Notes under the pieces: generated by a model | What the model saw: only the letters and a program-made list of their open reading frames with translations | Database searches by the model: none | Told to the model about the DNA's origin: nothing | Assembly: GCF_007860125.1 (NCBI RefSeq) | Contig: NZ_SJPW01000001.1 | Span: 558,001-622,000 of the forward strand | Source of the DNA: Rubripirellula tenax | GTDB taxonomy: Bacteria > Planctomycetota > Planctomycetia > Pirellulales > Pirellulaceae | Reading direction: 5' to 3' | Length of the DNA stretch: 64,000 bases | Program-made: the position numbers and the translations under genes | Part shown: piece by piece, positions 46,526-59,271 of the stretch | Layout: each line of letters begins with the position of its first letter | Position numbering within the stretch: position 1 is the stretch's first letter

Positions 46526-49009
46526 ATGCGAAGTTCACTTATGCGAACGAATTCACCAGACCAACGACCCGGGAAACCGTCCATCGAAATAGATGTTTTC
46601 GCAATGCTGCGGCGGCGTTGGTTCCACCTCGTATTGGGAACGTGTTTGGGTATCGCGTTCGCACTATTGTATTTCTATGCGACGAAACCAACCTACGAAT
46701 CTCATATTGAAATTTTGGTGGGACAGCGCTCCAGCGAATTGACCACCAGCGGAACGATGAGCAATTCGCAGGCCAGTGGCGACACGATCCAAGAAGACTT
46801 GCTGGCGACCCACGTTCAATTGCTGACCAGTCGTTTGCTCATCTCCGACGCCATCGCAACAGAGAATCTTGAAAAGCTGCCTTCCATCGGCGCTGTCGTG
46901 GCGGGTGGAGACAACGCGGTCGACTACATCATCGAGAACCTTGACGTTGCCCGCGGCGGAAAAGGCGCATCGAAAAACGCGATGGTCTTGTCGGCGACGT
47001 TCCGTGACCCGAATCCAGATGATGCAGCGACCATTTTGGCTGCCATCTATGGTTCGTACGAACGGTATGTCGAGAGCCACACCCAGGACACCAGCCGCGA
47101 AGCAGCCGAGTTAATCGACGCGGCACGCATCGAAAACGAAAAAGAATTGGATGCTGCCGATCGCGAATACCGTGAATTCATCAGTTCGGTACCTGTCTTG
47201 TTGGAGGGCGAACGTGTTCGCGATGTTCACAAGACTCGCCTGGAACAACTCGAGAGCGAACTGAACACCGTCCGCACTTCGTTGGCCGAAGCCAAGTCGC
47301 GATTGAAGGTCATCGAAGCGTTCACCGACGAGAACGAAACCTCGGTCAACGACTTCGATAAGCTGGCACTGTTAAGCCAGAAAGACGTCACGCGATTGAA
47401 ACTTTTCTTGGATATGACACGGGGCGAATCCCAATCGGAAACGTTCCAAGCTGAACAACCTGCTCGTGCCGAGGCCGCGCGAGCCCAATACAGTCGCTTG
47501 CTTGACTTGTTGCAAAAAGAACGCACGCTCGTCAGCGTCTACGGAGTCAGCCACCCGTTGATCAAGTCGACGAGAGAAGAAATCGACGTGATCGAACGAT
47601 TCGTTGCCGCCAACGCACCGGCCGCTCTGGAAGAAGAAAAGAGCACGATGAATCCTCGGACCATGTTGACCACGTTCACCCGATTGCTGAAAAACGACAT
47701 CGCAGAATACGAAATGCGTGAAGCTATCTTGGTCGAAACCAGTAGCGAAGAATTGCAATTGGCCAAAGACGTCGAAAACGCATTCCTTGAAGGCAACGCC
47801 AAGAAGGCGAAAGTGACGCGCGCCCAGATTCGATACGACGAAGTGATCCGACGCCTGCAAGAACTGAATTTGGCGGGATCCTACGCCGGCTTCTCGACGG
47901 ATTTGTTATCGAATCCGGAACCGGCCAAGAGTCCAGCTTGGCCGCGATTGCCGATCGTGTTGGTGTTGGGGTCGTTTCTCGGTTTCTTCCTGGGAATCGC
48001 CACAGGCATCAGCGCGGAACTGTTGGACACAACATTCCGTGACGTCGAGGACCTTGAAACGACGCTTCAGGCTTCGGCCATCGCACACGTTCCTTTGTTC
48101 AACCTTCGCAAGTTGCCGATTCCGTCGCCGGACCAGACTCCGCTAGCACCCTCGTTGGTGACGGCGCACTGTCCGCGTTCCGCGGAAGCCGAAGTCTATC
48201 GCGTCGCGCGAACATCGTTGATGATTCGTGCCGATGGCAGCGACACCAAGGTGTTGATGATGTCCAGCCCGCACCCTGGCGACGGGAAATCGACGACCAT
48301 CTCGAACTTGGCCATTTCGTTTGCTCAAGCAGGTAAGCGAGTCTTGCTGATCGACTCGGACCTTCGACGTCCTGTGATCGCGGGCTTGTTTGGTGTCGAT
48401 GGCGGCCGTGGCCTGGGTGACATTTTGATGGGCGAAGCAACGCTCGAAGACTCAACTGTCGCTTCGTCGGTCGAAAACTTGGACATCCTGCCTCACGGGA
48501 AAGCGACCAGCGTGCCCGCAGAACTCTTACAGTCCAATCGCATGAGTGTGTTGGTCCAAGAAGCACGGCGAACCTATGACTTGGTGTTGATCGATGCACC
48601 GCCTGTGCTTGCAGTGGCAGATCCTTCGATCGTCGCACCGCTGGCCGATGGTGTCATCTTGACCGTCCGGATTGCCAAAAATGGTCGTCGCCCCGTCGAA
48701 CAAGCGGGACGCATTCTTAACGACAACGGAATCGTGCCGCTCGCCCTAATTGTTAACGGTGTCGATGCGGGCAAACGATCGTCGTACGGGTACGGCGGGT
48801 ATCGTGCAAACGAATACGCCTACGTTGGAAAATATCACAACGAATATGCCGCAAGTGAACCTTCGTCGATCTCGACACTGCCTCGAGTGAAGGGCGCAAC
48901 AAAGTCGGCCACCTCGTCGGGTTCGCCGAATGCCTCGCGTGCGGTGGTCCTTGGATCCGCGACCCCAACCCTGCCTGGCATGGCCAGCCAGAAGGCGGCT
49001 TTGGAATGA
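46526..49009 (+). CDS. Polysaccharide co-polymerase / bacterial tyrosine kinase (Wzc-like)
   Basis: An 827-residue protein with Wzz chain-length and BY-kinase parts. The first helix is at about residues 32-50 (FHLVLGTCLGIAFALLYF), followed by a long periplasmic coiled coil (about 180-450). The second helix is at about 470-495 (IVLVLGSFLGFFLGIATG). The kinase has Walker A PHPGDGKSTTISN (about 581-593), Walker A' VLLIDSDLRRP and Walker B YDLVLIDAPPVLAV. The C-terminal tail has seven tyrosines within 25 residues (YGYGGY, NEYAYVGKYHNEY), the expected autophosphorylation cluster. Cycles of tyrosine phosphorylation control polymer length and export. Its stop overlaps the next gene by four bases. 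Confidence 0.94.
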   Translation: MRSSLMRTNSPDQRPGKPSIEIDVFAMLRRRWFHLVLGTCLGIAFALLYFYATKPTYESHIEILVGQRSSELTTSGTMSNSQASGDTIQEDLLATHVQLLTSRLLISDAIATENLEKLPSIGAVVAGGDNAVDYIIENLDVARGGKGASKNAMVLSATFRDPNPDDAATILAAIYGSYERYVESHTQDTSREAAELIDAARIENEKELDAADREYREFISSVPVLLEGERVRDVHKTRLEQLESELNTVRTSLAEAKSRLKVIEAFTDENETSVNDFDKLALLSQKDVTRLKLFLDMTRGESQSETFQAEQPARAEAARAQYSRLLDLLQKERTLVSVYGVSHPLIKSTREEIDVIERFVAANAPAALEEEKSTMNPRTMLTTFTRLLKNDIAEYEMREAILVETSSEELQLAKDVENAFLEGNAKKAKVTRAQIRYDEVIRRLQELNLAGSYAGFSTDLLSNPEPAKSPAWPRLPIVLVLGSFLGFFLGIATGISAELLDTTFRDVEDLETTLQASAIAHVPLFNLRKLPIPSPDQTPLAPSLVTAHCPRSAEAEVYRVARTSLMIRADGSDTKVLMMSSPHPGDGKSTTISNLAISFAQAGKRVLLIDSDLRRPVIAGLFGVDGGRGLGDILMGEATLEDSTVASSVENLDILPHGKATSVPAELLQSNRMSVLVQEARRTYDLVLIDAPPVLAVADPSIVAPLADGVILTVRIAKNGRRPVEQAGRILNDNGIVPLALIVNGVDAGKRSSYGYGGYRANEYAYVGKYHNEYAASEPSSISTLPRVKGATKSATSSGSPNASRAVVLGSATPTLPGMASQKAALE

Positions 49010-50310
49010 ATTACCAAACTGTCGTAATCGCTTTCACGCTACTGGCAATCTTTGTTCCCCAGTTCGTGATCGCGGTTCCAGAGTTTGGCGATCAAATCAA
49101 AACAACCGACTTGTTCGCCGTGCTTTCGGTTCCGGTTGCGTTCTTTGCGTTCATGAATCGACGCTCGATGCAACTGGTTCAAATCGTTGCGATCGCAGTC
49201 ATTTGCTTTTCCGCAACCGTTGTCATTACGAACATTTTCCAAAGCAGCGACCGTCGTCTCTATCAAGAGAACCTGCCGCACCTAGCGCGACTGTTCTCAA
49301 TCCATTCGTTGTTATTCTTAGTCGTGGCGATGCCCACCGACAGGCAATTCTTATCCCGCAGCTTGATCGCATTCGGTTGTCTGGCCACATTCGCCAGCGT
49401 CTGTATCGCGGTTCTCTATCACTTTGGCAGCGGTGCCTTCGACGCCCACCAAACATTCGAGCGTGACGGTGGTGCGTCGGTTCACCGTCTTGGTGGTTTG
49501 GTTGGTGAATCCGGCGCGTACGCATTCAACGCAACGATGGGTTTCCAGCTACTGTTGGCCGGACTGGCGATGGTAAACAAGCGTCGTTTGTACTTCATCG
49601 CGTTGTGGATTGTCTTCCCAGTCTTGGTGGCATTGATCTACCACGAGTCGTTGGTTCGCATCTCGCTTCTGATGAGCATTTTGTTCTTTTTGATTTGCGT
49701 GACTGTGGTAAACCACTCCGCAACAGCCTTACGCGGTCTTCTCGCCGTCTCGATATTGAGTGTGGTGACCGTTGTCATCCTGATGTCCGCAGCGGGTCAT
49801 CCGATCGGCGACATACAAATCGACCGCCTTGAATTCGACGGGGATGCGAATCGTCTATCATCTGGACGAGTTGCGAACTGGGTCGAGGCGGCTGACGTGT
49901 GGACGAGCGAACCGATGTGGATTCTATTCGGGATGGGGCACCGCGCATCCGACTTCGTCTTGATGCACCCCATCGAAAACATGGCCGTCTTTCATCTCGT
50001 GAACTACGGTTTGATTGGATCTGCGTTGTTTCTGATGCTGTACGGTTACATCTTCGCACCGATCTTCAAGCAAGCACTGCGAGGTGACTTTGCCGGAGGT
50101 GTCTTTTCTGCATTGATTTTGTCAGTGCTTGTTCAGTGGCAAGTCAACGATATCAACTTGTACTTTCAAACCTTCCCGATCGTGCTGTTCTTCTCGGCCT
50201 GGTATTCTTCGAACCTCCGATCGGGAGTCGACTCGTACGAGCAACCAGAATCGGAACCGTCACTCGATTCTCGACACGGTGAAGTTTACGAACTGAGGAA
50301 CGCTCTATAA
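49006..50310 (+). CDS. O-antigen polymerase-like membrane protein
   Basis: A 434-residue protein starting in the ATGA overlap with the BY-kinase stop, so it is translationally coupled. About eleven hydrophobic helices (TVVIAFTLLAIFVPQFVIAV; SLLFLVVAMPTD; LLMSILFFLICVTVV) with an outer loop holding GLVGESGAYAFNATMGFQLL. It lacks a strong sequence signature, as Wzy-type polymerases usually do. Position and topology argue for the polysaccharide polymerase acting with the Wzc-like protein. A 123-bp gap separates it from the PP2C gene. Confidence 0.8.
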   Translation: MNYQTVVIAFTLLAIFVPQFVIAVPEFGDQIKTTDLFAVLSVPVAFFAFMNRRSMQLVQIVAIAVICFSATVVITNIFQSSDRRLYQENLPHLARLFSIHSLLFLVVAMPTDRQFLSRSLIAFGCLATFASVCIAVLYHFGSGAFDAHQTFERDGGASVHRLGGLVGESGAYAFNATMGFQLLLAGLAMVNKRRLYFIALWIVFPVLVALIYHESLVRISLLMSILFFLICVTVVNHSATALRGLLAVSILSVVTVVILMSAAGHPIGDIQIDRLEFDGDANRLSSGRVANWVEAADVWTSEPMWILFGMGHRASDFVLMHPIENMAVFHLVNYGLIGSALFLMLYGYIFAPIFKQALRGDFAGGVFSALILSVLVQWQVNDINLYFQTFPIVLFFSAWYSSNLRSGVDSYEQPESEPSLDSRHGEVYELRNAL

Positions 50311-50433: not shown

Positions 50434-51669
50434 ATGAAGATTGTTGCCTCTGCACTCAGCGATCGCGGATTATTGCGTGATGGGAACGAGGATCAGTATC
50501 TTATCGATGAGTCGCTCGGTCTGTATATGGTTTGCGACGGCATGGGAGGACACGTGGCCGGCGAAGTCGCGGCAGAGCGAGCCATCGAGTTTGCTTCGGA
50601 ACACATTTCGGCACATTCCGAAGTACTCGAGTCGGCGGCAGGACAACCCGACAGGTACGTCCGCATTCAACAAATTGCTGAAGAAGCGGTCCAAACGGCC
50701 AGCCAGGAAGTCCACCAACTTTCTAGGTCATCGCCCAAGTACGCTGGCATGGGCACGACGCTGACCATGCTGGTGATCGTCGACGACAAAGCAATCATCG
50801 CACATGTCGGCGACTCGCGCATGTATTTGATGCGCGGTGGCGAGATTCATCAATTGACCGTTGATCACACGCTGGCCAATGAAATGTTTCTATGTGGCGG
50901 ATTGACAAAAGAGGAAGCCGCAACGAGTCGCTATCAACACGTTCTGACGCGCAGCATTGGCCCCCACCAATTCGTCACCGTCGACACGCTGTTGTTTGAC
51001 TTGATCCCGGGTGATCGACTGCTGCTCTGTTCGGATGGCCTAAGCAACTATTTTGCGGACGAGTCGGTGATCGCAGAATTACTCGCCCAGAAAGAAATCA
51101 CCGGCCAACCGCAACAACTGATCGAGTTTGCCAAAGAGGCGGGCGGCGCTGACAACATCACGGCGGTCGTTGTTGATACGTTGTTGGATTCGGACGCGGA
51201 ATCCGAACCGGACGCAGACGAACGCATGGAAGCTCTCCGCAACAGTTTCCTGGGTCGAGGGCTTTCGGTTCGTCGACTACTTTATCTGATCACGACGTCA
51301 ACGGTGATCCATTGCAATGCGGGAAAAGAGTTTCTTGAGATGGGCGACAGGTGCCCGGGCATGTTCATTGTCCTCGAGGGTTCCTTTCGTTTCACCGATG
51401 ACGATTCGTTTGAATCCAAATTGGTTAAAGGGGATTGCTTCGGCCAAGGCAATCTGATCTTGCCCGCGAAGTCGCACGCTCGATTGATTGCGAACGAACC
51501 ATCGCGAATGCTGTTGATCGACCGAGAGAAATTCAACCGTCTTACGAAGCGAATTCCCCGACTCGGAAATGCGCTGCTGCGAAACCTGTCCCAACACCTC
51601 AGCAAAGCCATGGTCGCCTCAACCGATTTCAGCCCTGGCCGACGGAAAGATCTGGGAACGTCGTCATGA
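50434..51669 (+). CDS. PP2C-type protein phosphatase fused to a cyclic nucleotide-binding-like domain
   Basis: A 411-residue soluble protein. Residues about 1-250 are a PPM/PP2C phosphatase with all metal-site blocks: RDGNEDQYL, VCDGMGGHVAGE, HVGDSRMYLMR, LCSDGLSNYF and GGADNITAVVVD. It should therefore be an active Ser/Thr phosphatase using Mg or Mn. After a short acidic linker, residues about 285-400 have the fold pattern of a cNMP-binding domain (GDRCPGMFIVLEGSFRF; GDCFGQGNLILPAKSHARL). The phosphate cassette is weak: FGQ instead of FGE, and SHA where RSA is usual, so it may not bind cAMP or cGMP. The stop overlaps the ATG of the first ion-channel gene by four bases, tying the phosphatase to the channels. 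Confidence 0.93.
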   Translation: MKIVASALSDRGLLRDGNEDQYLIDESLGLYMVCDGMGGHVAGEVAAERAIEFASEHISAHSEVLESAAGQPDRYVRIQQIAEEAVQTASQEVHQLSRSSPKYAGMGTTLTMLVIVDDKAIIAHVGDSRMYLMRGGEIHQLTVDHTLANEMFLCGGLTKEEAATSRYQHVLTRSIGPHQFVTVDTLLFDLIPGDRLLLCSDGLSNYFADESVIAELLAQKEITGQPQQLIEFAKEAGGADNITAVVVDTLLDSDAESEPDADERMEALRNSFLGRGLSVRRLLYLITTSTVIHCNAGKEFLEMGDRCPGMFIVLEGSFRFTDDDSFESKLVKGDCFGQGNLILPAKSHARLIANEPSRMLLIDREKFNRLTKRIPRLGNALLRNLSQHLSKAMVASTDFSPGRRKDLGTSS

Positions 51670-52778
51670 TGCGTGCGACACACCCGCTACTCTCCCTGAC
51701 TGCCGTTTTGATCAGCTTGTTCGGCGTCGCATCGGACTGCATCCCGCAAGAACCTGTTGACGCAGTAACGCCCGTGTCGGCTGATGCGGACATCCTGCTG
51801 AAGGTCGGCACGAAGCAGAGCCCGCCATTTGCGATCAAGCATGCCGATGGATCTTGGACCAGAATCAGCATCGAATTGTGGGAACACTTGGCCGACGAAC
51901 TGGATCTTGAGTTCGAGTTCCAAGAATTGACGCTGCCAGAAATGCTGGTGGGTTTAGAAGAGGGGCGGTTGGATGCAGCCGTCGCAGCCATCAGCGTGAC
52001 TTCCGAACGACACGAAAGGATCGACTTTTGTCATCCGCACTATTCCACCGGTTTGGGGATCGCGGTCAGCACTCGCGACCGTTCGACGCCCTGGAAATTG
52101 CTGGGCCGCGTCGTCACCAGTCGCTTACTTAAACTCGTCGCTGCGATGATCGTGACCGTGCTGGGTTGCGGATTTCTGTTTTGGCTATTCGAACGCAAAT
52201 CGAACGCGACCATGTTTGGTGGCAAGAAACGTCACGGTCTTGGCATGGGATTTTGGTGGTCGATGATCCTGCTGCTTGGAAACAAGAGCTTGATGCCTGT
52301 CAGCACCATGGGACGCTTGCTTGCGACCCTGGCGATGTTTTCAAGTTTGATCGTGTTATCGATCCTGACCGGCGTGATCACATCCGTACTGACCGTTGGA
52401 CAACTTGACACGGGAATCCGACGGTCCACTGATCTTTACAATGTTCGCGTTGCATCGGTCGCGGACAGCACAAGCGCCGACTATCTGAGACAACGTCACA
52501 TTTTCTTCCGCGGCTATGAAAATCCGCGAGCAGCAATGGAAGCGGTCGACGCTGGCAACGCAGACGCATTTGTGTACGACGCGGCGTTATTGAAGTATTT
52601 GGCAAGCGACGAGTTTGCCAACCGCATCGACGTGCTGCCGGTGATCTTCAATGTTCAGGAATACGCCATCGCCCTGCCGCAAGAGAGCGAACTTCGGAAA
52701 CCTCTGAACGAAGAACTGCTTCGCTACCGCGAAAGCGATGCGTGGGACGAACTTGTCTATAGGTATTTAGGAGAATGA
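51666..52778 (+). CDS. Ionotropic glutamate receptor-like channel, atypical pore
   Basis: A 370-residue protein, ATG coupled to the PP2C stop. After a signal sequence, a type 3 solute-binding fold is split by a two-helix pore: S1 (about 44-140), M1 (about 154-176, LKLVAAMIVTVLGCGFLFWL), pore loop (about 193-215), M2 (about 218-244) and S2 (about 250-370). This is the GluR0 topology. R115 in SERHERIDF corresponds to the Arg that binds the ligand carboxylate in glutamate receptors, and DAFVYDAALLKYL gives the conserved Asp. The pore reads WWSMILLLGNKSLMPVSTMG: the potassium filter TVGYGD is absent. It may be a regulatory subunit, a channel of other selectivity, or non-conducting. Confidence 0.88.
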   Translation: MMRATHPLLSLTAVLISLFGVASDCIPQEPVDAVTPVSADADILLKVGTKQSPPFAIKHADGSWTRISIELWEHLADELDLEFEFQELTLPEMLVGLEEGRLDAAVAAISVTSERHERIDFCHPHYSTGLGIAVSTRDRSTPWKLLGRVVTSRLLKLVAAMIVTVLGCGFLFWLFERKSNATMFGGKKRHGLGMGFWWSMILLLGNKSLMPVSTMGRLLATLAMFSSLIVLSILTGVITSVLTVGQLDTGIRRSTDLYNVRVASVADSTSADYLRQRHIFFRGYENPRAAMEAVDAGNADAFVYDAALLKYLASDEFANRIDVLPVIFNVQEYAIALPQESELRKPLNEELLRYRESDAWDELVYRYLGE

Positions 52779-52779
52779 G

Positions 52780-53937
52780 ATGACGGAACGGAATCGACTT
52801 CGCACGGGATCGATACAAGTAGCCCTACTTTGCGTCGCCGCCTCGCTCGCGATGGCTCAGGACGAATCGCAAAATCCATCGCCGGAAGCTGATTCCATCC
52901 GGTTGGATGTACCAGATATGCTGCGCGTCGCCACACGAGAAGTCCCGCCGTTCGCGATGCGCAATGAAGCGGGACAGTGGACAGGAATTTGCATTGACCT
53001 GTTACGTGAAATCAAAGCCTCGCTGGAAATCGAATCCGGACACCCGATCGAGATCGAGTTCCGAACACTACCGCTTGCCGAGATGCTAGATGCTGTCGAA
53101 GAATCGCGGGTCGACATGGCCGCTGCCGCTATCACGGTGAATTACGAACGGGAAAAGCGGATGGACTTTACGCATTCGTTTCACACCTCCGGACTCGGTA
53201 TCGCGGTGGGGGCGAGGCTACGCCAATCCGGATGGTCGGGAATCATTGACGCCGTCTTTTCAAAGACTTTCTTCCGCATCGTTTCGGGGCTTGTGCTTGC
53301 GATGCTAGCCAGCGCCGTTGGTATCTATCTGTTTGAACGCAAGGCGAATCGAGAGCAATTCGGTAAAGGCTGGGTCTCGGGAATCGCAGCCGGCATGTGG
53401 TGGGCGGCCGTGACCCTGACCACCGTTGGATATGGAGACAAGGTACCTCGCACGTTGGGAGGACGATTGATTGGCTTGATCTGGATGTTCGCCGGACTTT
53501 TCATCATCGCCGGGTTCACCGCGGCGGTTACCTCAGCACTGACCTTGACGGAGCTAAGAACTCAGATCAACGGCCCGGCCGACCTATCCCGCGTTCGAGT
53601 CGCAACCGTCGAAGGTTCGACGTCCGCCGATTACCTGCGATCGCGACACATCTTGTTTGCGAACCATGCCGATGTGGACTCCGCAATCAAAAGCCTGGTA
53701 GCGAACCAGTGCGACGCTGTCGTCTATGACGCAGCAATTTTGAAACACCAGACGTACCAAGAATGGTCCGGCAACGCCTACGTACTGCCTGCTTCGTTCG
53801 AGCGACAGAACTACGCGATCGCGCTGCCCACCGACAGCCCGCTAACGGAACCCATCAACCAGATACTGTTAAGAGAAACATCCAGCCCAAAATGGGAAGA
53901 AGTGCTGGCCACATACTTCGGCGAAAACCTGCCTTAG
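52780..53937 (+). CDS. Ligand-gated potassium channel of GluR0 type (ionotropic glutamate receptor-like)
   Basis: A 385-residue protein, one base after the previous stop, with TAGGAG as ribosome binding site. Signal peptide (about 10-26), S1 ligand lobe (about 47-145, with FAMRNEAGQWTGICIDLL), M1 (about 164-186), pore helix and filter T214-T-V-G-Y-G-D220, M2 (about 229-255) and S2 lobe (about 262-385). The filter is identical to that of K+ channels, as in Synechocystis GluR0. R124 in YEREKRMDF and the Asp in CDAVVYDAAIL fit amino-acid binding. It should open a K+ pore when an amino acid binds outside. It shares M1-pore-M2 sequence and gene position with the upstream paralogue, so heteromers are plausible. 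Confidence 0.92.
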   Translation: MTERNRLRTGSIQVALLCVAASLAMAQDESQNPSPEADSIRLDVPDMLRVATREVPPFAMRNEAGQWTGICIDLLREIKASLEIESGHPIEIEFRTLPLAEMLDAVEESRVDMAAAAITVNYEREKRMDFTHSFHTSGLGIAVGARLRQSGWSGIIDAVFSKTFFRIVSGLVLAMLASAVGIYLFERKANREQFGKGWVSGIAAGMWWAAVTLTTVGYGDKVPRTLGGRLIGLIWMFAGLFIIAGFTAAVTSALTLTELRTQINGPADLSRVRVATVEGSTSADYLRSRHILFANHADVDSAIKSLVANQCDAVVYDAAILKHQTYQEWSGNAYVLPASFERQNYAIALPTDSPLTEPINQILLRETSSPKWEEVLATYFGENLP

Positions 53938-53980: not shown

Positions 53981-54652
53981 TTAAAACTGACGCTTCTTGG
54001 ATGTGCGTTTTTGCCGTCGACGCTGGAAGATCAATCCGCAGGCCGCTAGGCCGAACATCGCGAACGACGATGGCTCGGGAACGGCTACTGCAGAGACTTG
54101 GAAATCAAGCTTGTAAGTCGTCGCTGGTCCAGTCTGTTGGAGATAGACCGTATAGTCGCCGGGCCCCAATGGGCCTTCGGCGGGCAACCCATCCGCCGCG
54201 AACCCTCGACCGATGAAGAGATTGTTGTTCCCAATTCGAGGCAACAGATTTGTGCCAATTTGAGCCGCTGTTCCGACCAATAGGCCGCCCAGAAATTCGT
54301 CTCCACTAAGTGAATTTCCGTCAAACAACAATGTGTCTTCCGATACGGGAAATGTTGTGTCGTTTTCGATCGCGAAAAACATTCGGTTGAAGTGGGACGA
54401 ATAGTCCACCAGCAGAATCCCCGTGAGCGATTGACCGGGAACAATTTGAAACCGAAAGACGTCGTTTCCATTCGCTGGGAAACCGCCTTCGACGCGATTG
54501 AGCCCCACATCGAACGCACCCAGATCCGTCGGATTGGCGGACTCTGTGCTGAGACTTTCGTTGACTTCAACGTAAGTGACAAGAGCAGACATGGCGGGAC
54601 TTGCCAGGCTACTTGCGAAAAAGAGAGCGAACGCGGAAAGCATTTTGAGCAT
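53981..54652 (-). CDS. PEP-CTERM surface protein, unknown function
   Basis: A 223-residue protein with a signal peptide (MLKMLSAFALFFASSLASPA) and a beta-rich mature part (NDVFRFQIVPGQSLTGILLVD; GPGDYTVYLQQTG). The C-terminus is a PEP-CTERM signal: VPEPSSFAMFGLAACGLIF, then RRRQKRTSKKRQ. It has no catalytic motif. It is convergent with the GluR0-like gene (43 bp apart). It is probably a surface or matrix protein sorted by an exosortase encoded elsewhere. Confidence 0.87.
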   Translation of the reverse strand: MLKMLSAFALFFASSLASPAMSALVTYVEVNESLSTESANPTDLGAFDVGLNRVEGGFPANGNDVFRFQIVPGQSLTGILLVDYSSHFNRMFFAIENDTTFPVSEDTLLFDGNSLSGDEFLGGLLVGTAAQIGTNLLPRIGNNNLFIGRGFAADGLPAEGPLGPGDYTVYLQQTGPATTYKLDFQVSAVAVPEPSSFAMFGLAACGLIFQRRRQKRTSKKRQF

Positions 54653-55062
54653 GGTATTGAGACGCCAGAATCAAGGTTTGCACGGGTGGCCGTGGGCGGC
54701 AAAGACAAGGCCATTAGTATAGCAAGCTCGATTCGCAATTAAACGATACGATGGCGGGGTTTCTTGATTTTCGAGGTTTATTTGGCCTGCTTGGTTCTGC
54801 CGCCTTCGCTGTGCGTGCGTGGATTCTCTACCTTTCCGAATTGGACATCCCCAATCGGACGCCGTATGGCGGATGGCTTATGCTCCGCGTGGGGGGATGC
54901 GATTGGGCTTCTGAAGCGTGGCGAGAAAGACCGGTACACGCGAGCGATTGGACATCCATCCAAACATCGAGCGGTGGCCGTGCAATGGCCTGCACCAAAG
55001 CGGAGCTGCTGCGGTGCCGGCTATGATGGTTGCAATCCGTGTTTCTCCGTGGAGTCGCTACT
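54653..55062. other. Intergenic region with nested inverted repeats
   Basis: No gene is supported in these 410 bases. CCCAATCG (54850-54857) pairs with CGATTGGG (54900-54907), and CATCCCC with GGGGATG just inside and overlapping. GCGGA/TCCGC forms an inner stem. ATTGGACATCC occurs twice (54840-54850 and 54947-54957). The structure lies 150-220 bp upstream of the ceramidase/dehydrogenase fusion gene and may be an mRNA leader, a small RNA or an operator region. Confidence 0.4.
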
Positions 55063-58000
55063 GTGTCTTCTATCTATATCCATCTCGGTTGCCTCTTCGG
55101 ATTTTTCTTCGCCGCTGCAACCGCCTGGTCAGTCGAATCCCACACTCGCTGGCAAGCCGGTTTTTCACGTATTGATGTGACGCCCGTCGAACCAGTTCGC
55201 ACGACCGGATACTCCGACCGTGATCGGCCGAGTGAAGGAGTCGACACGCCGCTGAACGTTCGTGCGATGGCGCTGCGACATGGCGACGAAGCCATTCACG
55301 TGCTGGTCACCGTCGACAGCATCGGTATCAGCGGAGTGCAGACGCAACGACTGGCATCCGATATCGAAACGGCTCACGGAATCAAACGCAACCGACTTGT
55401 CATCAGCAGCACGCACACTCACGCGGCACCCGACTTGGTAACGGGACTGGACAATATCTTTATGACGCCGCTAAGCGACGATGAATCGGCTGCCCGCCAG
55501 CGCTATTCCGAACAACTGGATGCCGCCATCCTGAGGGCCGTCGATGAAGCCATCGATGACTTGGCACCGGCCGGCTTGTCGCATGGCCAGGGGGCGATCG
55601 GCTTCGCGGTGAACCGTCGCGTGATCCAGGACGGACGCTGGGTTCAATTCGGCGTTCAAGCCGATGGCCCCGTCGACCAGAGTGTTTCGACGATTCGCGT
55701 TTCGGACGCAGACGGAAAAATCCGCGGAGTTCTTTTCAACTACGCGTGCCATTGCACGACGCTTCCCGGAAACTATTTCCGCATCAATGCCGATTGGGCG
55801 GGTTACGCGGCGACGCAACTTGAAAAGTCGCATCCGGATTGTGTCGCGATGTGTACGATCGGATGTGGCGCCGATGCCAACCCGGAACCTCGTGGAAAAC
55901 CCGATATGGCGGCGATGCATGGGCTAGCGCTGGCTGGCGAAGTGAATCGTGTGATCAAGGAAGACATGCGACCGATCGACGAGCCGATCGAAGCCAACTT
56001 TGGTTTCGCAGGATTGTCGTTCGACTCGCCAACGACCGACGAATTGGCCGCGCGTGCCGCCAACGATGGGATTCAATACCAACGCAACGCGAAACATCTG
56101 CAAGAGACGCTGAAGGAACATGGGCGGTTGCCCGCCACCTATCCCGTACCGATTCAATCATGGCGTTTCGGCGATGACTTGACCATGATCTTCCTGGGGG
56201 GCGAAGTCGTGGTGGACTATGCGTTGCGATTGAAAAAAGAACTCGACGATCCGAGTCTTTGGGTGTCGGCCTACTGCAACGACGTACTCGGCTACATCGC
56301 TAGCGAGCGCATGCGTGGCGAAGGCGGCTACGAGTTCGATCGTTCGGCCGTCTTCTACAACTTGCCTGGACCGTGGGCGACCGGCAGCGAAGATTTGCTG
56401 ATTCACCGAGTCCATGAGATTCTCGAATCCGCTGTAAAACCATCACCGCTTACGCCCGACGATGCTCTGAACAGTATCCGTGTTCCCGATGGGTTCGCAG
56501 TGCAACTGGTTGCTTCGGAGCCACTGGTACGCGACCCGATCAACATCGCGTTCGGTCTCGACGGCCGGTTGTGGGTTGTCGAAATGGGTGACTATCCGGG
56601 AACCAATGACAACGCAGTGCCTCGCGGAAAGATCAAGTTCTTGTCGGACACCGATGGCGACGGAGTGTTTGACGCGGCGACGACATTTTTGGACGGCATC
56701 GAGTTCGCCACGGCGGTGCATCCGTGGAAGGACGGCTTGATCGTGTGCGCGGCGCCCGACATCTTTTTTGCTCGCGATACCGATGGTGACGGTGTGGCGG
56801 ACGAGCGGACGACTTGGTACACGGGCTTTCCGCTGGCGAACCCGCAACACCGCGTCAACGGATTCACTTACGGACTCGAACACGCGTTGCACTGTGCCAG
56901 CGGCGACAACCTGGGCGACTTAAAAGCGGTACGGACGGGCGAGACTGTGAACGCGTCGGGTCGTGACGTGCGGATCTGGCCGACGACGGGCAAGATCGAT
57001 CTGATCAGTGGACGGACCCAATACATTCGCTCTCGAAATGACTGGGGCGAGTGTTTCGGGAACGACAACAGTCGGCCGATGTACCACTACCCCATCGAAG
57101 ATCGCTATCTGCGACGCAATCCGGCCGCTGCGATCAGCAGTAGCCAGCAGCAACTGTTCAACCCGCCGTCGGCGCCGCCGGTGTTCCCGATCAGCAAAAC
57201 GGCGGATCGCTTCAACGACCTGTTCGCGGCGAACCGATTCACTTCGGCGTGCAGCAGCGTTGTGTTTCGTTCAAACGGACTGGGGGAATCGCTTGCGGGT
57301 GCCGCGCTGGTTTGCGAGCCCGTTCATAACTTAACCCACCGCTCGAAATTGGTATCCGATAGATCGAGCTATCGGGCCGAGCGTGATGCGTCGGAGTTGC
57401 AAAGCGAGTTTATCGCGTCCACCGACCCTTGGTTTCGTCCGGTTCGAGCGATCGAAGGAACCGATGGCATGCTGTGGGTTGTCGACATGTACCGACAAGT
57501 GATCGAACACCCCGAGTGGATCCCCGAGTCGTGGCAAAAACAGGTGGATTTGCGCGCCGGTGCGGAACAGGGTCGAATCTATCGCGTGGTACCGAAGGGC
57601 ACGTCGCCGAAAATTGAACTGCCGAATATCGCGGCGACTCCGGCGATCACCGTGGCGGCAATGTTGGATTCGGATTCGGGCGCGGTTCGCGATTTGGTTC
57701 AACAGCATTTGTTGTGTCACCCGGAAGCTGATGCCAAAGCGACACAGTGGCTGTTGGAGTCTTACTTGACCCGAGGCAAGACGCCTCAAACGCGACTGCA
57801 TGCCTTGTGGTGCCTGGCCGAACGCGACGAGCTGACACCCATGCTGTTGAAAATTGCGCTTGCTGACCGCCATTTCGGCGTCGTTCGATCGGCGATCTTG
57901 CTGAGCGAGTCGCGTTTGGACGAGCACCCCGATCTGCTGACGGCGCTGGCGAAGCTTGCCGACCACGATGACGCGCGGGTAAAGCTGCAACTGGCGCTCA

Positions 58001-59271
58001 CGCTTGGCGAAACGTCCGATAGCGAGGCAGGCGTCATTTTGGCTGAACTGGTCGACGATGCGACCACCGATGAATGGCTGGCGCGGGCGCTGATCACATC
58101 GGCGACGCCGCACGTGGACGTGTTGTTGCAAAAAAGTTTGGCCCGGATTCGCGATGGGTCGTCCGATGCCACCAGCACCGAAACGATTCGTTTGATTTCG
58201 CAGTTGATTCAAACGGCCTCGCAACACGGTTCCGGTGAAGCGATCCATCGCGTAACAGAGTCGTTGGATGCGGCGACCGAGGAATCGGAATGGGCGATAC
58301 CGCTGGCGACCGCTTTGATGGATCGCCGGAACAAATCTTCGTCCGATGGCAAGTGGTCCGAAACGTTGGTCCGTGTCTATCGGCAAGCAGCCGAAACAGT
58401 CGCCAGCGACAACGCAAGCGATACACGTCGCTGTCAGGCGATCGGATTGTTGGGCCGAGGTCTCGCCGACGACGATCTCGACTCACAAACGATGGTCGAT
58501 TTGATTTCGCCTCGCGTGCCGCTTGCGGTTCAGCTTGCCGCCGTCGCGCGTTTGGGGCAGATCGGACACGCGGCAGGCGGCGAGGCGTTGATCGCCACGT
58601 GGCCAACGATGTCTCAATCCGTGCGTGCCGCCACGATCCAACAAATGTTGACGAACGGCGAATGGACGACAAAGTTGCTTGCCGCGATGGAACGGGGCGA
58701 GATCTCGTCGCAAGAATTGAGTCCGGCCGCGAAACAGACGTTGCAAACGATTGGCAGCCCATCCTCCAAAGCACTGGCGCGGCGGTTGTTGGGCGATGTG
58801 GGTGCGACCGATCGCCAAGCGATCGTTGTGGACTACCTTTCAAAATTGAACGACGACGATGCCGATGTGACTCGCGGTGCGGAAGCGTTCAAGCGGATGT
58901 GTGCGGCGTGTCACGTCGCCGATGACCAGGGGCGGATGGCCGGCCCGAATCTGGTGAATCTGACGGACCGTTCGCCACGAGCTCTCGTCGAAGCCATCTT
59001 GGATCCGAATCGAGCGGTCGACCCGCAATATCGAAGCTACACCGTACTGCTCGAAGACGGCCGCGTGCTCAGCGGCGTGGTCGCCGAAGAAGCGGGCGAA
59101 AGCCTGACGCTGGTCCACGCCGACGGGAAACGAACCACGATTTCAAGACGCGATATCGACCAGATGCGAAGCACCGGATTGTCCTTGATGCCCCAGGGAT
59201 TCGAATCCGAATTGCCGCCACCGCTGATGAGCGATGTGTTGAAATATGTGCGAGAGGCGATGGTGCGTTAG
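55063..59271 (+). CDS. Fusion of ceramidase-like domain, PVC-type dehydrogenase, HEAT repeats and cytochrome c
   Basis: A 1402-residue secreted protein; GTG 55063 after GTGGAG gives a signal peptide (CLFGFFFAAATAWS), while a TTG at 55030 would add 11 residues. Residues about 25-440 resemble the neutral/alkaline non-lysosomal ceramidase N-terminal domain (ISSTHTHAAPDL; FNYACHCTTLPG; TIGCGADANPEPRG, with His/Cys residues near a zinc site). Residues about 470-850 are the PVC-type membrane-bound dehydrogenase propeller (PDGFAVQLVASEPLVRDP; LDGRLWVVEMGDYPG; FLSDTDGDGVFD). HEAT-like helices follow (about 860-1270). A CxxCH heme site lies at C1280-C1283-H1284 (MCAACHVADDQGRMAGPNL). It may hydrolyse amide-linked lipids or sugars and oxidise the product, passing electrons to the heme. 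Confidence 0.9.
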   Translation: MSSIYIHLGCLFGFFFAAATAWSVESHTRWQAGFSRIDVTPVEPVRTTGYSDRDRPSEGVDTPLNVRAMALRHGDEAIHVLVTVDSIGISGVQTQRLASDIETAHGIKRNRLVISSTHTHAAPDLVTGLDNIFMTPLSDDESAARQRYSEQLDAAILRAVDEAIDDLAPAGLSHGQGAIGFAVNRRVIQDGRWVQFGVQADGPVDQSVSTIRVSDADGKIRGVLFNYACHCTTLPGNYFRINADWAGYAATQLEKSHPDCVAMCTIGCGADANPEPRGKPDMAAMHGLALAGEVNRVIKEDMRPIDEPIEANFGFAGLSFDSPTTDELAARAANDGIQYQRNAKHLQETLKEHGRLPATYPVPIQSWRFGDDLTMIFLGGEVVVDYALRLKKELDDPSLWVSAYCNDVLGYIASERMRGEGGYEFDRSAVFYNLPGPWATGSEDLLIHRVHEILESAVKPSPLTPDDALNSIRVPDGFAVQLVASEPLVRDPINIAFGLDGRLWVVEMGDYPGTNDNAVPRGKIKFLSDTDGDGVFDAATTFLDGIEFATAVHPWKDGLIVCAAPDIFFARDTDGDGVADERTTWYTGFPLANPQHRVNGFTYGLEHALHCASGDNLGDLKAVRTGETVNASGRDVRIWPTTGKIDLISGRTQYIRSRNDWGECFGNDNSRPMYHYPIEDRYLRRNPAAAISSSQQQLFNPPSAPPVFPISKTADRFNDLFAANRFTSACSSVVFRSNGLGESLAGAALVCEPVHNLTHRSKLVSDRSSYRAERDASELQSEFIASTDPWFRPVRAIEGTDGMLWVVDMYRQVIEHPEWIPESWQKQVDLRAGAEQGRIYRVVPKGTSPKIELPNIAATPAITVAAMLDSDSGAVRDLVQQHLLCHPEADAKATQWLLESYLTRGKTPQTRLHALWCLAERDELTPMLLKIALADRHFGVVRSAILLSESRLDEHPDLLTALAKLADHDDARVKLQLALTLGETSDSEAGVILAELVDDATTDEWLARALITSATPHVDVLLQKSLARIRDGSSDATSTETIRLISQLIQTASQHGSGEAIHRVTESLDAATEESEWAIPLATALMDRRNKSSSDGKWSETLVRVYRQAAETVASDNASDTRRCQAIGLLGRGLADDDLDSQTMVDLISPRVPLAVQLAAVARLGQIGHAAGGEALIATWPTMSQSVRAATIQQMLTNGEWTTKLLAAMERGEISSQELSPAAKQTLQTIGSPSSKALARRLLGDVGATDRQAIVVDYLSKLNDDDADVTRGAEAFKRMCAACHVADDQGRMAGPNLVNLTDRSPRALVEAILDPNRAVDPQYRSYTVLLEDGRVLSGVVAEEAGESLTLVHADGKRTTISRRDIDQMRSTGLSLMPQGFESELPPPLMSDVLKYVREAMVR

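Follow-up and report, generated by a model that had tools for sequence, protein, structure and literature searches.

A K+-filter glutamate-receptor-like channel gene and its filter-less, lysine-loop paralogue, paired in Rubripirellula tenax and other planctomycetes

Three tightly packed genes of the planctomycete Rubripirellula tenax encode a PP2C-type Ser/Thr phosphatase carrying a fold of the cyclic nucleotide monophosphate (cNMP)-binding kind, hereafter PP2C-CNB, and two paralogous glutamate-receptor-like channel subunits, A and B, of which only B has a K+ selectivity filter. They lie within a stretch of 64,000 nucleotides (assembly GCF_007860125.1, contig NZ_SJPW01000001.1, positions 558,001 to 622,000), referred to below as the window, whose first letter is position 1 of the coordinates given here. 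In A the filter is replaced by a shorter loop with a lysine that is retained throughout a planctomycete clade, and A-type genes usually stand next to a gene for a channel with the K+ filter (K-type gene). The reading favoured here, with a probability of about one half, is that A and B form a heteromeric amino-acid-gated bacterial ionotropic glutamate receptor (iGluR), in which B would conduct and A would be an accessory subunit altering the filter, and that this receptor belongs to a cation/osmotic module with the phosphatase as its cytosolic arm where present. Bacteria too may build mixed-subunit glutamate receptors.

The best-known bacterial glutamate receptor, GluR0, has one K+-selective subunit and serves as an ancestor-like form of the receptors of nerve cells. 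Subunit A (51666..52778, plus strand, 370 aa) and subunit B (52780..53937, plus strand, 385 aa) are 39% identical and share the GluR0 layout. The filter TTVGYGD is present in B only (residues 214-220); at the same place of the alignment A has LLLGNKS (residues 202-208), two residues shorter, in which the lysine (Lys207) aligns with the second Gly of GYG. Pfam detects SBP_bac_3, Ion_trans_2 and Lig_chan in B, and SBP_bac_3 and Lig_chan with no Ion_trans_2 match in A. AlphaFold2 models of the monomers show the order S1-M1-pore helix-M2-S2 in each subunit with moderate confidence: the best of five models has a predicted local distance difference test (pLDDT) score of 73.7 and a predicted TM-score (pTM) of 0.47 for A, and 70.2 and 0.45 for B, while the weakest of five reaches a pLDDT of 50.6 for A and 55.7 for B. 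The top Foldseek matches of both models are AMPA, NMDA and delta receptor chains, aligned over the whole length with TM-scores of about 0.5 and root mean square deviations of about 6-11 Å; the best E-values are 3.2e-19 for A and 1.5e-17 for B, the latter to NMDA/AMPA chains, at a TM-score of about 0.5 each. At the sequence level A and B share their best match in the PDB, the ligand domain 2pyy of a bacterial iGluR from Nostoc (E about 3e-29); next come NMDA receptor chains for B, and for A amino-acid-binding proteins and GluR0 (1ii5, 1iit). A sequence-only reading of this DNA had described the two channels as a paralogous pair with the GluR0 layout; Pfam, the models and Foldseek bear out the layout for both, while the asymmetry between the two filters had been missed.

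Relatives were collected in five scans, covering 80 relatives, 396 genomes of the order, all 241 genomes available for the family, 392 of the phylum and 397 of the class; the scans overlap in genomes and differ in their E-value limits, all except the family scan are samples, and most matches in a family designated f8 and several phylum matches were left out of the comparison. Genomes and loci are given below by working numbers (G and L). A-type genes were found in 23 planctomycete genomes. In an IQ-TREE tree of 71 channel rows, from which frames shorter than 300 aa (two A pieces of G402) were excluded, the clade holding A comprises 21 rows, each with the loop [LF]G[HN]K[GS], which occurs in no row outside it; the clade holding B comprises 29 rows, VGYGD being present in 29/29, and four rows of the tree carry other filters. 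Support for the A clade is 100/99, and it has the same value in a second tree of 69 rows computed after dropping the pore columns, from which the long-branch rows G025 and G290 were also excluded. Since the pore motif itself served to label the rows as K or A-type, the motif counts are meaningful only together with the clades, which are recovered without the pore columns too. Two more A-type genes with the same loop, those of G1047 and G1129, were read after the tree. All 23 have a loop of 17 residues between WW and GR/AR with the lysine present (LGHKG in 17, LGNKG in three, LGNKS in two and FGHKG in one), and the motif is constant across families, orders and one distant member of the phylum. 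One change at the pore site suffices on the unrooted tree and the replacement has been retained. The A paralogue appears to have had a single origin, with gene transfer as an alternative on such a tree.

Pores of other kinds were met as well. Single-gene channels from another family of the order carry GSCDD, GGCDD or GGCEN in place of VGYGD (G106, L088 6490-7608; G055, L031 3574-5448; G072, L032 5333-7144); the order scan found many relatives in family f8, of which these three pores were read. The GCD of animal AMPA receptors resembles these pore sequences. In a receptor channel of 35% identity, encoded on a contig of a Nitratifractor metagenome-assembled genome (MAG), TTVGNVEM takes the place of TTVGYGDK (L035 6270-7355).

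The A gene is under purifying selection. Its dN/dS (Nei-Gojobori) ranges over 0.08-0.20 and that of B over 0.10-0.27 (seven pairs), that of the PP2C gene over 0.10-0.18 (six pairs), and 96 positions are invariant among 20 A sequences, the genes of G740a, G1047 and G1129 being left out of the codon, clamp and invariance counts. These values, together with a pore motif that does not change between families, between orders or in the distant phylum member, make it most improbable that A is a functionless, decaying duplicate of B, although a copy of A in G402 is broken and no A was found in nine genomes with a B-clade gene; contig 12 of G402 has an A-B pair that is intact, and a pseudogene is rejected on the grounds of selection and invariance. 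The broken copy, on contig 17 of that genome, lies between PP2C and B and is reduced to frames of 147 and 62 aa (L119 6131-6574 and 6574-6762), which match residues 11-130 and 309-370 of A.

The distribution of conservation along A bears on whether it lines a pore. Identity to the majority residue is 0.78 in the block with the pore loop (201-220) and 0.68-0.84 in the ligand-domain blocks (41-140 and 261-370), so that conservation of the pore loop roughly equals that of the ligand domain. A receptor that forms no pore would not need that, which counts against the suggestion that A is non-conducting, a membrane-anchored ligand sensor or a dominant-negative brake that would tune B from outside the pore or signal to the phosphatase. 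The filter motif is gone in every member of the A clade, and animal receptors of the GluD type signal with little current; on balance this explanation is regarded as improbable, though well ahead of decay.

In 20 of the 23 genomes the A gene has a K-type gene as its immediate same-strand neighbour, with A before B in 18 and B before A in two (G1047 and G1129). A B-clade gene with no A match is found in nine genomes (G125, G359, G342, G496, G499, G164, G172, G095 and G901) as against one genome with A only, so B seems able to work alone and A rarely. It is this adjacency, set against the single A-only genome, that suggests a mixed tetramer. The strongest competing explanation is that A and B assemble into two separate homotetramers from one operon, B being a K+ channel and A a channel of another selectivity, either a non-selective cation channel or, by way of a ring of four lysines, an anion channel. 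A retains the full layout, M1 and M2 and the ligand clamp, it occurs without B in G426, and prokaryotic channels with a P region unlike that of K+ channels exist (Group 2 of Ger et al. 2010, PMC2950845, cited here, as are the other papers below, from excerpts). The asymmetry of A beside a K-type gene in 20/23 and B-clade genes alone in nine is what would be expected of an accessory subunit, and separate homotetramers are accordingly thought unlikely, if less so than a non-conducting A. Pairwise distances of A and B are correlated (r 0.87 over 19 genomes, G426, where B is absent, being left out), and the correlation left when PP2C distance is partialled out (r 0.66, permutation p 0.0002, nine genomes) also speaks against separate channels; it is weak evidence through close kinship, confounded by shared ancestry with six of the nine genomes of the partial test being close relatives, and is therefore given little weight.

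Both subunits keep the residues of an amino-acid pocket. The S1 Arg and S2 Asp that form the clamp, located by alignment with 2pyy, are present in 20/20 A and 19/19 B sequences compared; in the window the residues concerned are S110, R115, S268-T269 and D305 in A and T119, R124, S280-T281 and D317 in B, and five residues before the clamp Arg there is a Ser in A and a Thr in B. Excerpts of PMC2950845 describe the roles of the S1 Arg and the S2 Asp in holding the amino acid. Because the clamp is kept, A and B should both bind an amino acid or a close analogue, possibly different ones, which agrees with the amino-acid gating that the sequence-only reading had suggested. An invariant C-x-P-H follows the ligand Arg in A (window 52029-52040, residues 122-125; 20/20) and is absent from B; it could bind a metal.

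The PP2C-CNB gene (50434..51669, plus strand, 411 aa) encodes a phosphatase domain at residues ~6-248 and a cNMP-binding fold at residues ~294-390. Pfam finds both, PP2C_2/PP2C (PF13672/PF00481) and cNMP_binding (PF00027), in one protein, as had been expected from the sequence. The best PDB matches by phmmer are 5iti and 2j82 (E 3e-40), and the score of 228.7 bits falls just below the NCBIfam Stp1/IreP cut-off of 230. The catalytic motifs DGMGGH, GDSR, SDG and DNIT are exact in 14/15 homologues, with two single-residue variants in G581 (DGLGGH and GDCR), and the phosphatase should therefore be active. The phosphate-binding cassette of cyclic-nucleotide-binding domains has the form FGE...Arg and is defined by its Arg. 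In the fold attached to PP2C, with the window protein aligned with PKA RI-alpha and the position counted ungapped from FG, the place of this Arg is taken by Ser in 14/15 and by Pro in 1/15 homologues, which makes binding of cAMP or cGMP in the usual mode doubtful; in G508, G510 and G511 the residue just before this position is an Arg, and in G383 the residue just after it, so that a shifted role is possible there. Of the cNMP-binding-like domain proposed earlier, then, the fold stands, and the notion of a cyclic-nucleotide ligand, hence of a canonical cAMP/cGMP sensor, is weakened.

The three genes are conserved as a unit in part of the family. A PP2C-CNB orthologue of at least 57% identity is encoded in 13 of the 241 family genomes, that of the window included, to which G002 adds a 41% homologue, and the full trio occurs in nine (G000, which is the genome of the window, and G319, G400, G448, G478, G508, G509, G510 and G511). 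Conservation of the three-gene order, proposed earlier as a test, is thereby established for these nine. The PP2C and A genes overlap by 4 bp in 9/9 trios, in the form ATGA in six and GTGA in three as judged by the start of the longest frame. In the window the shared ATGA, stop of PP2C and start of A, lies at 51666..51669, and the stretch 52769..52782, as read from the sequence, holds an AGGAG ribosome-binding-like site (52769-52773) in the 3' end of A, the A stop, a 1-bp gap and the ATG of B, all on the plus strand; the packing is as first described. G402 has PP2C, the broken A and B, and in G383 it is PP2C and B that share such an overlap. The distant phylum member G581 has, side by side, a K-type channel, a PP2C-CNB of 38% identity, MscS and, on the opposite strand, CorA. 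A contig scan of named relatives gave five loci, namely two planctomycete trios, the channel of the Nitratifractor MAG and two partial matches; the named trios, of TBK1r (CP036432.1) and Rhodopirellula sp. SM50 (NZ_NTFY01000117.1), are most likely among the nine of the family.

The neighbours of the trio point to cation/osmotic homeostasis, since the order MscS, PP2C, A, B, CorA is found in seven of the nine trio genomes, followed in five by MgtE; the MscS linked to the trio is large and of the porin-domain type where scanned. Among the 11 adjacent A-B pairs with no PP2C beside them, CorA adjoins four (G222, G105, G1047 and G1129), that of G222 having MscS as well. Over 56 channel loci of unequal flank length, to which G402, G383, G342, G478 and G740 contribute two each and which include G508, where the query sequences for MscS and CorA came from, 17 have a CorA on the strand of the channel and no more than 100 bp from it, and 10 have an upstream MscS with an identity of 40% or more; the MscS count excludes a match in G1016 (24%, in overlap with the frame of the channel) and a second MscS in G400 (28%). 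Genes of the CNNM/CorC type were also seen near channels in 4/56 loci and SLC12-type genes (Na-K-Cl cotransporter-like) in 2/56 (L119 13556-15808 and L205 10427-12622). On contig 6 of G000 an MscS relative (54%) adjoins CorA with no trio between them (359128-360216 and 360387-363773; L206, L208), and this CorA is 40% identical to the one beside the G508 trio. The place of the trio in the window looks secondary, because the MscS relative and CorA sit on another contig.

The sequence-only reading had tentatively tied the trio to exopolysaccharide production through a BY-kinase and a polymerase encoded upstream. The supposed kinase is a Wzz plus AAA_31 (BY-kinase-like) gene at 46526-49009; the supposed polymerase, a membrane protein encoded at 49006-50310, has no Pfam match. 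A part in exopolysaccharide regulation together with the kinase has in its favour that the trio begins 123 bp 3' of this membrane-protein gene, which follows the Wzz/BY-kinase-like gene, on the same strand. In the other eight trio genomes, however, the gene directly 5' of the trio is MscS (seven) or a divergent CorA (one, G478), polysaccharide genes not having been searched for farther out, and the window genome has its MscS relative and CorA elsewhere. As the setting directly upstream is not common to these eight, the exopolysaccharide neighbours are, on present evidence, a local feature, and the proposed link is rejected as very unlikely.

Several observations weigh against a mixed receptor in a cation/osmotic operon. 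G426, with a genome 99% complete in 200 contigs, has A, and a search with B finds no K-type gene in it; G383 and G740 carry A on one contig and the K-type gene on another. The coupling of A and B is therefore not absolute, and strict co-occurrence is rejected on account of G426. Of the 20 adjacent pairs, 11 have no PP2C next to them, which shows that a pair can do without it; conversely, G190 and G266 have PP2C and no channel match, with MscS kept beside PP2C in G266, and a strict linkage of PP2C to the channels is likewise rejected. Neither MscS nor CorA is near the trio in the window, and neither was found in the stretch examined around seven of the 11 pairs without PP2C (G011, G071, G402a, G365, G140, G674 and G810). 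A scan for promoters and terminators gave nothing usable, with two promoter-like sites against 2.2 expected and nine terminator-like sites against 5.0 expected (standard deviation 2.1), none of them directly 3' of B. The AlphaFold2 models, of modest confidence, were computed from 7-row alignments for monomers only and so bear on single chains, not on co-assembly. Downstream of the trio the window has a gene for a PEP-CTERM protein on the minus strand, head-on to it (53981-54652), and a single frame of 1413 aa (55030-59271) with a ceramidase-like N-terminus (PF04734), DUF7133 and weak HEAT and cytochrome c matches.

With these points taken into account, a mixed receptor would work as follows. 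A and B would be subunits of a single amino-acid-gated receptor channel of the inner membrane, with periplasmic ligand domains and pore loops entering from the cytoplasmic side, as in GluR0 and the animal iGluRs. B would provide the K+-selective filter and would work alone in some species; A is the paralogue that has lost TTVGYGD and acquired a short loop bearing a fixed lysine. In the mixed tetramer, whose 2:2 composition is guessed from the way iGluRs are built, the presence of A would reduce or otherwise change K+ conductance and let a second amino-acid site control gating, much as the GluA2(R), GluN1 or GluK4/5 subunits act in animals; a ring of lysines might make the mixed pore weakly selective or anion-permeable. 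The co-translated PP2C-CNB would be the cytosolic arm, most likely setting the phosphorylation of the channel or of neighbouring MscS/CorA-type transporters, its cNMP-fold tail would be a non-canonical regulatory domain, and the whole module would serve cation and osmotic homeostasis. A more general proposition is put forward tentatively and held to be somewhat less probable than the reading for this locus: that there are bacterial heteromeric iGluRs of an obligate type, composed of a K+-filter subunit and a fixed-lysine-loop subunit, independent of animal GluN and GluA2(R) and, in certain lineages, translationally linked to a PP2C in a cation/osmotic operon. If true, subunit mixing and loss of K+ selectivity arose outside animals too, and the pair would offer a small expressible model for the action of a filter-altering subunit; the MscS-PP2C-A-B-CorA neighbourhood of several relatives provides a testable physiological role in osmotic and cation balance.

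Single prokaryotic iGluRs, both with the K+ filter and of a non-K+ kind, are already known (PMC2950845, in excerpt). In the open-licence literature, none of the matches listed describes an iGluR pair or heteromer in a bacterium, and no papers were found on planctomycete or Rhodopirellula glutamate receptors or on a planctomycete PP2C with CNB. B shares S1-M1-P-M2-S2, the Arg/Asp clamp and TxVGYGD with GluR0 of Synechocystis (Slr1257) and the K+-filter iGluRs of Group 1 (Ger et al. 2010, PMC2950845); here, in contrast, a filter-less paralogue is encoded alongside, whereas the excerpts of that paper treat proteins singly. A resembles Group 2 of the same paper, whose P region is unrecognised there, in having no K+ filter and keeping the ligand clamp, and differs in forming one planctomycete clade with a fixed loop and a usual K-type neighbour, as seen in a tree that holds no Group 2 sequences. 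Among solved structures, the ligand domain of GluR0 (1ii5, 1iit) is related to A, and in 2pyy a ligand domain alone was solved with no partner subunit in the entry, whereas A and B are full-length genes. According to excerpts of PMC13099474, GluR0 of Synechocystis conducts K+, has an inverted topology and takes part in the control of cell volume under KCl stress, this being by its authors' account the first report, in 2026, of a bacterial role for this class of receptor; the K+ conduction and the effect on volume fit an osmotic/cation module. The phosphatase has its whole catalytic domain and motifs in common with the tPphA/PstP/Stp-type PP2C phosphatases, to which PP2C-CNB adds the C-terminal cNMP fold without the usual phosphate-binding Arg and a place in a channel operon. 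In animals, some iGluR subunits require a partner (PMC12551409), and the Q/R/N site, which governs permeability, overlaps the filter of GluR0 (PMC3483616), both as excerpted; the lysine of A falls within the region of this site by alignment. Like the heteromeric animal receptors (GluN1/GluN2, mixtures with GluA2(R), GluK4/5), whose fold of ligand-binding and transmembrane domains A and B match over the whole length, the planctomycete pair consists of paralogous subunits; unlike them, A and B are bacterial, have neither an amino-terminal domain nor M4, include one partner that is K+-selective by its motif, and are proposed to co-assemble on the evidence of their genes.

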